Assembly (NCBI GenBank): GCA_016207905.1
Contig: JACQZC010000096.1
Span: 1 to 33,696, forward strand
Direction: 5' to 3'
Source: Nitrospirota bacterium
GTDB taxonomy: Bacteria > Nitrospirota > Thermodesulfovibrionia > Thermodesulfovibrionales > JdFR-86
Length of the DNA: 33,696 nucleotides
Shown here: piece after piece, positions 25,370 to 32,575 of the stretch
Numbering within the stretch: position 1 is the stretch's first letter
Layout: the number at the start of each line of letters is the position of its first letter
Program-made: the position numbers and the translations under genes
Notes under the pieces: generated by a model
The model's input: only the letters and a program-made list of their open reading frames with translations
The model's database searches: none
Told to the model about the DNA's origin: nothing

Positions 25370-25892
25370 CGATGAGTTTATCCCAGAGCCCTTTAGACCT
25401 GAGAAGGAAATCTATTACCTCTCTCACAGCGCCCCTTCCTCCTCTTTTTTTTGTAATCATCATGGCAAATGACTTTGCCTCTTCTTCTGCATCGGAAACT
25501 GCCACAGAAAGCCCTGCACGCCTGAAAAGAGGGATGTCCACTATATCATCCCCTATATAGGCTATCTCGGAATCCGAGATACCGAATTTGCTAAGCACCT
25601 GCTCGTATGCAACTGACTTTATGTGACAACGCTGATAAACCTCTGTTATGCCCAACTCTTTCGCCCTTCTTTCAACTACCTTTGAATACCTTCCTGTAAT
25701 AATGGCAACATGTATCCCAGCCCTTTGGAGCATCTTTATTCCATGTCCATCCCTTACATGAAATGCCTTAAGCTCATTGCCTCTGTTATCTAAAACAATA
25801 GAGCCATCTGTAAGAACACCGTCTACATCGAGAATGAGGAGCTTAATGTTTTTTGCTTTTTTAGTTAGTTCTTTTTTTGAGATCTTTCTCAC
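25350..25892 (-). CDS. kdsC: 3-deoxy-D-manno-octulosonate 8-phosphate phosphatase
   Basis: KdsC removes phosphate from KDO-8-phosphate, third step of the KDO pathway. The 180-aa HAD protein shows LDVDGVLTDG (nucleophile D22, acid D24), ITGR (motif II), a lysine-containing segment (HIKSVAYEQV) and YIGDDIVDIPLF (motif IV). No cap domain is present, as expected for KdsC tetramers. It overlaps kdsD by four bases. Confidence 0.95.
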   Translation of the reverse strand: MRKISKKELTKKAKNIKLLILDVDGVLTDGSIVLDNRGNELKAFHVRDGHGIKMLQRAGIHVAIITGRYSKVVERRAKELGITEVYQRCHIKSVAYEQVLSKFGISDSEIAYIGDDIVDIPLFRRAGLSVAVSDAEEEAKSFAMMITKKRGGRGAVREVIDFLLRSKGLWDKLIDEYSEI

Positions 25893-26854
25893 ACTATCCC
25901 CTTCTTTAAAATATCATGTAGATGAATAATGCCCTCTGCCTTTCCATCCTCATCAGGCACAACCAAAGCTGTAATGGACAAGCCCTCCATTATTGACAAT
26001 GCCTTTGCCGCAAGCTCATCTGCCTTTATTGTCCTTGGATTTTTTGTCATCACCTCCCCTGCACGCATCTCAAATACCTTCTGACCCCATTTCTCTATGC
26101 CTCTTCTTAAATCTCCGTCTGTTACGATTCCCATAATCATGCCTTGCTTATCGGTGACAGTGGTCATACCGAGTCTTTTTGAGGAAATCTCAATCACAGT
26201 CTGAGTCATCGGTGTATCGAGATAAACCTTTGGGATTTCATCACCTTTGTGCATAAGGTCAGAGACCTTTATGAGGAGTTTTTTGCCGAGGCTCCCTTCT
26301 GGATGAAACGATGCAAAGTCTTCTTCTTTGAGTCCTTGCTTAATTAGAAGCGAAACTGCCAAGGCGTCTCCCATTGCAAGTGCGGCTGTTGTTGATGCAG
26401 TTGGCACTATGCCTAAAGGACATGCCTCCTCTTTGACGGATATGTCAATATTGACATCAGAGGACTTTACAAGGGTAGAGTGCGGATTTCCGCTCATCGA
26501 GATTAAGCTTACATTAAACCTTTTAAGGTATGGCAGAAGCCTGACGAGTTCCTCTGTCTCTCCGCTGTTTGAGATGGCTATGATTACATCATCCTTTGTG
26601 ACCATACCCAGGTCCCCATGTCCTGCCTCAGCAGGATGAAGGAAAAACGAAGGAGTGCCAGTTGAGGCTAAGGTTGCAGCTATCTTTTTTCCAACAAGAC
26701 CTGATTTACCCATTCCTGTTACAACAACCCTGCCCTTAGAGCTATGAATAAGCTCTACTGCCCTTTCAAAGTCACTATTGAGCTTATCTATGAGGTCTCT
26801 TATAGCCTCTGACTCAATCCTTAAGACCCTTTTTGCAATATCAAGAACACTCAT
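25889..26854 (-). CDS. kdsD: Arabinose-5-phosphate isomerase (KdsD/KpsF type)
   Basis: Converts ribulose-5-phosphate to arabinose-5-phosphate, the first step of KDO synthesis. The 321-aa protein has an N-terminal SIS domain (VTGMGKSGLVGKKIAATLAS, then HPAEAGHGDLGMV and AISNSGETEEL, about residues 45-110) followed by two CBS domains (about 205-320). This is the complete three-domain form. It is coupled to kdsC by an ATGA overlap and lies 28 bases after the EF-Tu-like gene. Confidence 0.95.
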   Translation of the reverse strand: MSVLDIAKRVLRIESEAIRDLIDKLNSDFERAVELIHSSKGRVVVTGMGKSGLVGKKIAATLASTGTPSFFLHPAEAGHGDLGMVTKDDVIIAISNSGETEELVRLLPYLKRFNVSLISMSGNPHSTLVKSSDVNIDISVKEEACPLGIVPTASTTAALAMGDALAVSLLIKQGLKEEDFASFHPEGSLGKKLLIKVSDLMHKGDEIPKVYLDTPMTQTVIEISSKRLGMTTVTDKQGMIMGIVTDGDLRRGIEKWGQKVFEMRAGEVMTKNPRTIKADELAAKALSIMEGLSITALVVPDEDGKAEGIIHLHDILKKGIV

Positions 26855-26882: not shown

Positions 26883-27140
26883 TCATTCCTCAGTAACCCT
26901 GTAAACCACATCGTGCTCCCTTACATGGTCTTTTACCTTAATAGCAATATCATCACCTTTCTTTGCATGGGTTACATTGTCATGTTCAATCTGTATAGAT
27001 TCCACCTTCTGTGTGAAGTCTGTAGTGTGCCCCTTGATGTGAATGGTATCGCCAATCTTTAATTCACCCTCAAGGACTATAGCACCTACAAACAGTTTGC
27101 TGTAATAATGGCTTATAACACCTATTCTTTGTTCCATCAT
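26883..27140 (-). CDS. Small EF-Tu domain-2-like (translation-factor beta-barrel) protein
   Basis: An 85-aa protein that consists only of a beta-barrel like domain 2 of EF-Tu-type GTPases: VGAIVLEGELKIGDTIHIKG, then THAKKGDDIAIKVKD and HDVVYRV. There is no GTPase domain, so it is not a translation factor itself. Similar stand-alone proteins occur in many bacteria and archaea with no settled function. Start choice is between two adjacent ATG codons after GGGGGAAAAG. It lies between the restriction-modification island and kdsD and is probably part of the original KDO operon. Confidence 0.8.
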   Translation of the reverse strand: MMEQRIGVISHYYSKLFVGAIVLEGELKIGDTIHIKGHTTDFTQKVESIQIEHDNVTHAKKGDDIAIKVKDHVREHDVVYRVTEE

Positions 27141-27235
27141 CTTTTCCCCCTTATGGTTTTTCTTCTATGGGTCATAGACCATTTTTGCTTCACCAAGAAT
27201 GTTCATTGTAGTATGGTTTTTAAATTTTCCCTCCA

Positions 27236-28057
27236 CTATAATGATACCTGCAAAACAAGAAAATAACCGTTAAAGTGATGCTTTATTTTGAAAATATTGA
27301 ATTGTCCCAGGTCAAAGACCAATTCTGCTTTATTCAGTATTTCTTTTTCTTCCTTCTCGTTGTGGCATGGTAGAATAAAATTCAGCGTATCATCCTTTAT
27401 TTCAGGGTATTTCTTTGAATTTAAAATATTTCCCTCTGCTTTTACTTCGGTCATAATTCTAAAACGCAATTTTACGGATGCTTTCTCTACATTTCTAACC
27501 TTACTAAAATTTTCTTGCTGAGAAAAAATGGTTAAAAGGGTTTGCTTAAACTTCTCTGAAATCTCTTTTCCACTCTCTTTTAATCGTTCTTCTAAAACTT
27601 GTGAAAAAGATTGGCTTATCAGATTCTCTATGCTAATTGTTTCAAAAAAGCTGCCATAGACAAGACAAATTTTTGTATGGTTCTTTTTTCTTCCTCTGAC
27701 AAGATAATACACATCTCTTACGGGCAATGAGAAAATCTCATTGCCAACTTCTTCCATTTGTTGCTTAATTATACTATTCTCTCCAGTAATAATCTCTTCA
27801 ACCTTTTTGCTTCGGGAAGGGATAGTCGAATTGAAGGATGAGACAGTGTAAGAATCGCTGTCTTTTAGCTCTATCAACTCACCACCTGTAAATATTTTTC
27901 TATCCGTATTAAGACGAATAGCCATATCTGGGAAAACACCATCATTTTTGCAGGACAATAGCTTCTTGTCAAATGAAAACTGGTCCAACTTTTTGGTTTT
28001 TCTTAAAAGATGTTTTTGCTGAACTAAAGAGTAAAAGAAATGATAAATGGAATACAT
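27236..28057 (-). CDS. Probable type II restriction endonuclease
   Basis: A 273-aa protein paired with a DNA methyltransferase; its start overlaps the methyltransferase stop (TAATG). A PD-(D/E)xK nuclease core is visible: PD at 43-44 (GVFPDMAIRLN) and E63-L-K65 in GGELIELKDSDSY, followed by SFNSTIPSRSKK. This layout is typical of type II restriction enzymes, though I cannot name the recognition site or family with confidence. The gene is clearly richer in A+T, lysine and asparagine codons than its neighbours, as expected for a transferred island. Cleavage of unmodified foreign DNA is the likely role, complementing the CRISPR system at the other end of the window. Confidence 0.8.
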   Translation of the reverse strand: MYSIYHFFYSLVQQKHLLRKTKKLDQFSFDKKLLSCKNDGVFPDMAIRLNTDRKIFTGGELIELKDSDSYTVSSFNSTIPSRSKKVEEIITGENSIIKQQMEEVGNEIFSLPVRDVYYLVRGRKKNHTKICLVYGSFFETISIENLISQSFSQVLEERLKESGKEISEKFKQTLLTIFSQQENFSKVRNVEKASVKLRFRIMTEVKAEGNILNSKKYPEIKDDTLNFILPCHNEKEEKEILNKAELVFDLGQFNIFKIKHHFNGYFLVLQVSL

Positions 28058-28944
28058 TATTCTCCAAACAATGTTAAAATTTCTTCTTTTTTTGATATAG
28101 CTGTGGCAAAATCAATATCCCATATCTTTTTCAGATTATCCGTATAAATATAATCCTTGTAAAAGCGAAGTGTGCTATCTGATTTGCTAATGCCTTTCAT
28201 ACGAGTTTTGATACACTTTACATTTTCTGAATCAAGCTCAATCCCGATAGATTTTCTTCCGAGTTGCTCGGCAACAACCAGTGTCGTTCCTGTGCCTGCA
28301 AATGGGTCTAATACGGTATCTCCAATCTTCGTGGAAGATAGAATTATTCTTAACAGGAGTGCTATTGGTGATTGCTGTTTGTGAAACCTCTCTCCACTTT
28401 CTTTTCTGATAGCTTCATCGCCTGCAAAATACCCTGCTGTTAGTTCGCGAATGTTATCCCATACATCTGTTAAGTAAACCCCATTTTCTCTTTCATGTTT
28501 GTAATTGGCAGGCAATGGTGGAGAAATTCGTAAGCGGTTGAAAACCCTTAAGGTTGTGCCTTTTGTAGCAAAAGCAATAACCTGATAATGTTTGCCAAAT
28601 TTGTTTGAACAAGGAACTGCAGAAGTTTTTTTCTTCCAGATGATAAGATTTTGAAATGTCCATCCTGATTCACGAAGACATTGCAAGACAAATTCCGTGT
28701 TTTTTTCTCTCTGCATAAAATAAATTGCTCCGCCATGAGATGTTATTTCATAAACACCTTTGCAAACTTGTTCCATCATTTGCCAGTATTCGTGTTCCGG
28801 TAAATTATCATTCCATGAATTGTATTCTTTATCCTGATTAAAAGGGGGATCTAAAAAAGTCAACCCGATGTTTTCGATCCCGAATATTTGGGATTCTGAA
28901 AGATACTTTAAGCAATCCCCCTGAAAAATCTTGTAATTACTCAT
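28057..28944 (-). CDS. DNA methyltransferase of the restriction-modification system (beta-class, probably N6-adenine)
   Basis: A 295-aa SAM-dependent DNA methyltransferase. From the ATG at 28944, the catalytic motif DPPF is at residues 32-35 and the SAM-binding DPFAGTGTT at about 213-221. This order (catalytic motif before SAM motif) defines the beta class, and DPPF with a following N suggests N6-adenine methylation. The segment HKQQSPIALLLRII before the SAM motif is typical. The open frame can be extended 10 codons upstream, but the internal ATG overlaps the stop of the 109-aa gene (ATGAGTAA) and begins at the family consensus (NYKIFQGDCLKYL). It protects host DNA from the adjacent endonuclease. 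Confidence 0.92.
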   Translation of the reverse strand: MSNYKIFQGDCLKYLSESQIFGIENIGLTFLDPPFNQDKEYNSWNDNLPEHEYWQMMEQVCKGVYEITSHGGAIYFMQREKNTEFVLQCLRESGWTFQNLIIWKKKTSAVPCSNKFGKHYQVIAFATKGTTLRVFNRLRISPPLPANYKHERENGVYLTDVWDNIRELTAGYFAGDEAIRKESGERFHKQQSPIALLLRIILSSTKIGDTVLDPFAGTGTTLVVAEQLGRKSIGIELDSENVKCIKTRMKGISKSDSTLRFYKDYIYTDNLKKIWDIDFATAISKKEEILTLFGE

Positions 28945-29266
28945 AATTCTCCCATTCAGATTGCTGCCTATCAATGTCCAGATTTTTTTCTATATAAGGC
29001 AAAAAATTCTTGTCAGAGAATAATTCATAGGCACGCTTACTGTATTTGTTTGCCTTTTTACGACTGAGCATCCAATCCGATTCCCAATACATCGATTCAT
29101 TTGAATCAATACCTAATTCTGATAAAATAACATTAATCGTAGTAATGAAAGATATTCTCCTTGTTTTTTTATGAATTGCTTTTATTGAAAAATGGTTGTT
29201 ATTGCAATTGCAATAACAGTTGAATATTTTATAATCATATCGAATTCCTTTTATTGAAGTTTTCAT
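28937..29266 (-). CDS. Unknown 109-aa protein at the head of the restriction-modification operon
   Basis: A basic, AT-rich gene whose stop overlaps the methyltransferase start. I recognise no domain. The N-terminal part has a cluster of cysteines and histidine (CYCNCNNNHF, about residues 17-26) that could bind metal, and a central WESDWMLSRKK segment. It does not look like the usual HTH controller protein. Candidates are a regulator or an accessory subunit for site recognition. The gene is first in the island, directly after a palindrome, and its translation is coupled to that of the methyltransferase. Confidence 0.6.
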   Translation of the reverse strand: MKTSIKGIRYDYKIFNCYCNCNNNHFSIKAIHKKTRRISFITTINVILSELGIDSNESMYWESDWMLSRKKANKYSKRAYELFSDKNFLPYIEKNLDIDRQQSEWENYE

Positions 29267-29294
29267 AACACAAAAATAATTAAGCTGATTTTAA

Positions 29295-29319
29295 TGTTGT
29301 TATACTACCACACTGTGGT
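29295..29319 (-). promoter_or_regulatory. Palindrome and -10-like box upstream of the restriction-modification operon
   Basis: A perfect 13-base palindrome with one central base (ACCACA-C-TGTGGT, 29307-29319) lies just upstream of a -10-like TATAAC on the minus strand, about 40 bases before the 109-aa gene. It could be an operator that times methyltransferase before nuclease expression. Function is inferred from position. Confidence 0.4.
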
Positions 29320-29343
29320 TTTTTATGCTTCATTTTCGGTCTC

Positions 29344-32575
<3,232 letters not shown>

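Follow-up and report, generated by a model that had tools for sequence, protein, structure and literature searches.

The KDO/lipopolysaccharide (LPS) operon of a Nitrospirota bacterium carries a horizontally acquired cassette of three overlapping genes, designated U, M and R. This type II-like restriction-modification (R-M) cassette is real and mobile and is ordinary except for its nuclease, which belongs to an orphan family, and for an optional third gene that is likewise an orphan. It lies in the window, meaning the whole 33,696-nt stretch of DNA analysed here, which belongs to a Nitrospirota MAG of 98 contigs and 2.03 Mb with 98% completeness. Taken as a whole, it is probable, if well short of certain, that a self-contained unit composed of a leader followed by U, M and R entered this operon by horizontal transfer and that the product of U tunes M or R.

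All three genes are located on the minus strand, with U as the first gene (28937-29266, 109 aa, delimited by its open reading frame and by homologue searches), followed by M (28057-28941, 294 aa, assigned by Pfam and alignment) and R (27236-28057, 273 aa, a putative PD-(D/E)xK restriction endonuclease gene recognized by its motif residues). The longest form of the M reading frame (28057-28974) begins with TTG at 28974, and an alignment of six relatives favours the ATG at 28941, which is likely to be the start of M. Counted from this ATG, U and M overlap by 5 nt, M and R overlap by 1 nt, and a Shine-Dalgarno-like GGGAG precedes the start of M, with GGAG ahead of that of R. The GC content of this island is 33.7% as compared to the window mean of 42.2%, the lowest value among 633 segments of 2079 bp. 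The earlier description of three AT-rich, overlapping genes on one strand, made from the letters and open reading frames alone (the sequence-only reading), is thus confirmed, as is the difference in base composition from the neighbours on which it depended. NCBIfam assignments also agree with its placement of kdsB-pyrG-kdsA and kdsD-kdsC on either side of the island, with kdsB, pyrG and kdsA (29344-30177, minus strand) upstream and kdsD/kpsF (25889-26854, minus strand), kdsC, pgsA and plsY downstream. Since kdsA and kdsD lie next to each other in G101 and G032, relatives which carry both genes without the cassette and provide the intact operons for comparison, the KDO operon is split in the window. 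However, the proposed insertion in the KDO operon holds with one amendment, as a native 85-aa gene (26883-27140, minus strand) separates the island from kdsD, and the same gene is present between kdsA and kdsD in G227, which has no cassette. The product of this gene is a stand-alone EF-Tu-domain-2-like protein with 74% identity to the G227 copy.

In beta-class N6/N4 DNA methyltransferases, the catalytic (D/N/S)PP(Y/F) motif precedes the SAM motif FxGxG. In Pfam, M is assigned to PF01555 (1e-44); it has CcrM (6pbd) and MboIIA (1g60) as its closest PDB relatives and contains DPPF ahead of the SAM motif DPFAGTGTT, an arrangement invariant in 6/6 aligned sequences. Hence, by family and motif order M is predicted to be a beta-class N6/N4 DNA methyltransferase, as had been claimed. 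Its relatives in viral contigs share only 27-29% identity. PD-(D/E)xK nucleases are defined by conserved PD...(D/E)xK residues, and in R the residues F-P-D44 ... E63-L-K65-D-S are invariant in 5/5 aligned homologues (P43, D44, E63, L64, K65), which also have SFNST and FFET in common. These shared motifs, together with the gene context, make R likely to be a PD-(D/E)xK nuclease. The nuclease assignment of the sequence-only reading therefore stands at the level of invariant motif residues, but is not extended by profiles or folds, as R has no useful match in Pfam, NCBIfam, PADLOC or PDB sequences and its structure model (pLDDT 34.8) is unusable. A predicted methyltransferase gene and a putative endonuclease gene, the latter identified by motif alone, are adjacent in the manner of type II R-M systems. 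R or its remnants occur in 10 of the 230 genomes of the class, seven of which have full-length R, and a single-sequence search returned R in 8/395 genomes of the phylum; searches for its relatives in viral contigs, phages and plasmids gave none.

Horizontal acquisition of the cassette is shown by comparison with G429, a genome of another family, which has a collinear copy at an unrelated place that aligns without gaps over 2080 bp (88.6% identity). This ungapped match defines the transferred unit (27235-29314, minus strand), since identity ends 1 base past the stop codon of R and 48 bp before U. At the protein level, identity between the window and G429 is 91.6% for R, 87.8% for M and 78.9% for U, as compared to 75.9% for KdsA, and dS is 0.42-0.49 for U, M and R as compared to 1.57 for kdsA. 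With cassette dS far below that of kdsA, and with the copy in another family and place, the cassette must have moved, and the common origin of the two copies is far more recent than the divergence of the two genomes. Measured against the G429 copy, dN/dS is lowest in R (0.08), intermediate in M (0.14) and highest in U (0.27, falling to 0.17 when codons 15-25 are left out), and therefore all three genes are under purifying selection. Neither a mobility gene nor a clear target duplication was found for the cassette. An 8-bp direct match, AAAAACCA, noticed by eye on the two sides of the island, is too short and A-rich to be claimed as a target duplication.

Further R-M copies are found at unrelated loci, where all neighbours other than the KDO genes were named by eye from translations. 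Besides kdsA|kdsD in the window, the copy of G379 separates carA from carB, those of G237 and G357 lie upstream of nrdJ (with R cut to 104 aa and M intact in G357), that of G440 is next to glnA where the contig ends, that of G295 is close to proS, and in G429 and G301 the copy follows a fragment belonging to a second methyltransferase gene. Remnants consisting of R only are present between cbiM and cbiQ in G289 and as a second R piece in G440, and a C-terminal R piece of about 25 residues lies between another R-M and carB in G203. In 10/10 genomes the R gene or remnant is co-directional with at least one immediate neighbour, a count made by eye and with no null model. Concerning the carA|carB slot, it contains an M-R pair in G379 (L034, 5502-7699), and in G203 (L036, 6859-10065) a different R-M together with the remnant, about 25 residues long, that resembles the R of the window, which looks like R-M systems succeeding one another at one slot. 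Directly upstream of U in G429 (L063, 4003-4233) and G301 (L030, 8455-8616) there is an N-terminal fragment of another PF01555-type methyltransferase, and downstream of R in G301 a fragment resembling, by eye, a 396-aa protein of G203; in these two genomes, a second, disrupted R-M seems to surround the cassette.

Within this taxonomic order, the kdsA|kdsD junction itself serves as a slot into which R-M and PIN toxin genes have been inserted repeatedly. kdsA was matched in 122/140 genomes of the order, and the slot sample consisted of kdsA with downstream sequence at 90 loci (the window and 89 others), with 32 of the matched genomes outside this sample. kdsD is found behind kdsA on the same strand in 73/90 loci, while 13 have more than 2.5 kb without kdsD and 4 have too little sequence. 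Gaps above 800 bp occur at kdsA|kdsD in 9/73 loci, as compared to 1/39 at kdsD|kdsC, 0/37 at kdsC|pgsA and 0/35 at pgsA|plsY. Against the pooled downstream junctions (1/111) the Fisher P value is 0.0012, or 0.0028 without the window, in a comparison that omits 20 loci with no kdsC found behind kdsD. At the upstream junctions of 8 loci such gaps were counted in 0/8 cases for kdsB|pyrG and 1/8 for pyrG|kdsA. The nine wide kdsA|kdsD gaps include R-M genes or their fragments in 4/9 and PIN genes in 4/9, with G203 and G014 in both sets. Apart from the U-M-R cassette of the window, these inserts comprise a MazE-like antitoxin and PIN pair with a further PF01555 methyltransferase, whose 387-aa partner has no Pfam match, in G203 (L085), a similar pair with a methyltransferase-like fragment (by eye; no Pfam match) in G014 (L042), an Eco57I-type methylase and its unmatched 220-aa partner in G114 (L094), a PIN pair with lipoprotein-like genes in G283 (L090), a PIN_3 gene in G347 (L113) and, by eye, cytochrome-like genes in G351 and G211, with only a native-looking 174-aa gene in the gap of G196. 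Two further features of these operons were noticed by eye. Several relatives (L072, 837-1316; L069, 4134-4526; L107, 3791-4315) share, between kdsA and kdsD, a small, secreted-looking coiled-coil protein with the C-terminal sequence PPGWLRCQF, which seems to be native to the KDO operon. In G104 (L038, 5500-8625), pyrG and kdsA are separated by a 3.3-kb antisense block in which a periplasmic-binding-protein-like gene is accompanied by a PAS/histidine-kinase-like gene.

U represents a real and very rare family under purifying selection. A profile search revealed it in 4 of the 230 class genomes (the genome of the window, G429, G295 and G301), and all four carriers have it beside this methyltransferase, which supports the association that the sequence-only reading had anticipated. 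U is present in 4/10 genomes with R or an R remnant and in 0/220 without R, corresponding to Fisher P values of 1.8e-6, or 4.3e-5 excluding the genome of the window, both uncorrected for shared ancestry. Over the phylum, the profile matched 4/395 genomes, one of them (G377) spuriously. This G377 match (E 0.0017) is antisense to another open gene and has a stop inside, and was left out of the counts as a chance match. When a three-row alignment was used to scan 84,980 species genomes, a method dependent on short conserved patterns, a single locus emerged, beside R-M; G295 was not among the results and may be outside that collection. U was not found in phages, plasmids or viral contigs. It leads M in three genomes (the window, G429 and G301), trails R in G295, and is absent beside full-length R in G440, G237 and G379 (three of the seven genomes with full-length R), where the M-R reading frames are intact; the R of G440 is 85% identical to that of the window, yet is without U. 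Since U is always found with R-M yet is missing from 3/7, it constitutes a linked but dispensable module. The structure model of U (pLDDT 53.5) is of low confidence and begins with beta strands, and its best PDB fold match (E 0.9) is uninformative. No HTH match was found for U in Pfam, NCBIfam or PADLOC, and no DxK/ExK is conserved, the D-Y-K of the window being D-F-Q and N-F-E in two homologues.

Two sequence features had been taken as clues to the function of U, a cysteine/histidine cluster in the protein and a 13-bp palindrome ahead of the operon, and neither survives comparison with the homologues. Residues 16-25 of U read NCYCNCNNNH in the window and IFPRDRNNCY in G429, and the cluster is missing from all three homologues, so that conserved Cys/His ligands as in a zinc finger are not found among them. 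The cluster coincides with a perfect palindrome of 22 bp, TGTTATTGCAATTGCAATAACA (29197-29218), that encodes the Cys/His-rich stretch. With 11-bp arms, this is the longest perfect palindrome in the window (longest in 300 island shuffles: 9); it is absent from the G429 copy and marks the centre of the densest cluster of window/G429 differences, with 13 in 28 bp, a density reached by 14/5000 shuffles. The cluster looks like a mutational accident and no metal site, and the palindrome may have been produced by a quasipalindrome template switch. The second longest perfect palindrome of the window is AAGACTCTTATAAGAGTCTT, of 20 bp, inside pyrG (30918-30937). As to the 13-bp palindrome, ACCACACTGTGGT (29307-29319), it does exist, but it straddles the insertion junction, with its outer 5 bp beyond the transferred unit, where the sequence of G429 differs. 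From this comparison it is to be regarded as a product of the junction and no conserved operator. No conserved palindromic operator of the C-protein kind was found, and no other box is obvious by eye in the 48-bp leader carried with the cassette (29267-29314, minus strand). Because only 2 of its 48 positions are mismatched between the window and G429, this segment is probably a promoter/leader; its divergence is below the synonymous rate (P 5e-7) and, against the mean island rate, not clearly lower (P 0.08). An intrinsic promoter scan gave 8 matches versus a shuffle mean of 9.3, hence no excess, and Rfam gave no match.

These results bear unequally on the explanations that can be offered for U. 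That U binds zinc through its Cys/His cluster would rest on the NCYCNCNNNH of the window copy, and is highly improbable given that no cluster exists in the three homologues and that the stretch is encoded by the longest palindrome, where 13 substitutions are crowded into 28 bp. Very unlikely, too, is an obligatory subunit, be it for specificity or as part of a heterodimeric nuclease: the overlap of U with the M gene in the window and G429 would suit such a role, but M-R remain intact without U in G440, G237 and G379, no DxK/ExK is conserved, and its optional nature together with its position behind R in G295 argues against an obligate specificity subunit. A C-protein-like transcriptional controller, which would bind the leader and delay R, agrees with the leading position of U in 3/4 copies and with a leader nearly invariant between the two closest copies. 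However, it is an unlikely explanation in view of the lacking HTH family match (Pfam, NCBIfam, PADLOC), a low-confidence model starting with beta strands, the non-conserved operator palindrome, the last position of U in G295, and an operon order in which M would be controlled along with R. The proposal of a new control or specificity protein is retained as far as an accessory or regulatory role is possible, although both clues behind it fail and U is optional and trails R in G295.

A more serious contender is that U is a passenger, an independent gene hitch-hiking with some R-M copies without acting on them. The absence of U from 3/7 genomes with full-length R, including G440 with its closely similar R, means that it may be a passenger, and its variable position and the fastest evolution among the three genes point in the same direction; against this, U is found in 0/220 R-negative class genomes and in no phages, plasmids or viral contigs, its sole locus in 84,980 species genomes is beside R-M, and the linkage is kept in two gene orders under purifying selection. 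We regard this as a possible but not the probable explanation, and give it substantial weight. A broader proposal, that U founds a non-HTH class of R-M control travelling with one orphan endonuclease family (for example as an inhibitor or a translational/assembly regulator of R or M) and, jointly, that core operons act as standing addiction-module slots with R-M and PIN toxins replacing one another in envelope and nucleotide operons, is held to be rather doubtful. U is best read as a putative optional accessory or regulator. According to the preferred reading of an acquired leader-U-M-R cassette, the unit would have been inserted behind kdsA and ahead of the gene that follows it in the KDO/LPS operon, in the orientation of transcription, M would methylate a short site, probably at N6-adenine, and R would cut that site when unmethylated. 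The tight overlaps would lead to co-transcription and translational coupling of U, M and R, the cassette's own leader could be used as promoter, and U may act on the R-M, most likely by tuning the expression or activity of M/R.

With this cassette, the R-M repertoire gains two orphans, an endonuclease family and a third protein, and the stretch within U illustrates how a palindrome arising locally in DNA can give a protein the false look of binding metal. Selfish addiction modules are seen to enter one junction of a core LPS operon repeatedly, and its empty and filled kdsA|kdsD sites make the entry of R-M systems into operons testable.

Operons are among the locations described for R-M genes (PMC3031569). 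In open-licence literature on R-M systems inserted into operons, on R-M/toxin-antitoxin hotspots in biosynthetic operons and on R-M in Nitrospirota, an incomplete set represented by titles and the beginnings of abstracts, nothing on an insertion junction at kdsA|kdsD or on a U-like protein was present. Quasipalindrome-associated template-switch mutation is reported as a known mechanism (PMC7202029, PMC8604942). The burst of substitutions giving a perfect inverted repeat in the coding sequence of U is of the same kind, although, unlike the published template switches, it is deduced from one sequence pair with the direction of change unproven. C proteins are described as binding DNA via HTH motifs and regulating R-M operons (PMC12707154, PMC3874152). 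The cassette is similar to such C-protein-controlled R-M systems (PvuII, BamHI, AhdI type) in having a small third gene that leads the operon, but differs in that U has no HTH match, M and R are both downstream, the third gene may trail R and the proposed operator is not conserved. Type II R-M systems with a beta-class methyltransferase are matched in the adjacent M/R operon, the N6_N4_Mtase family of M, the conserved FPD...ELK in R, the mobility and the patchy distribution, whereas an R family outside Pfam, NCBIfam and PADLOC and an optional third gene of an orphan family set the cassette apart from the known members. Operon-inserted and other mobile forms of R-M were reportedly described by Furuta, Abe and Kobayashi in 2010. 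Like these forms, the cassette is inserted in a host genome without a mobility gene; unlike them, one junction, kdsA|kdsD, is reused here, and by PIN toxin genes as well.
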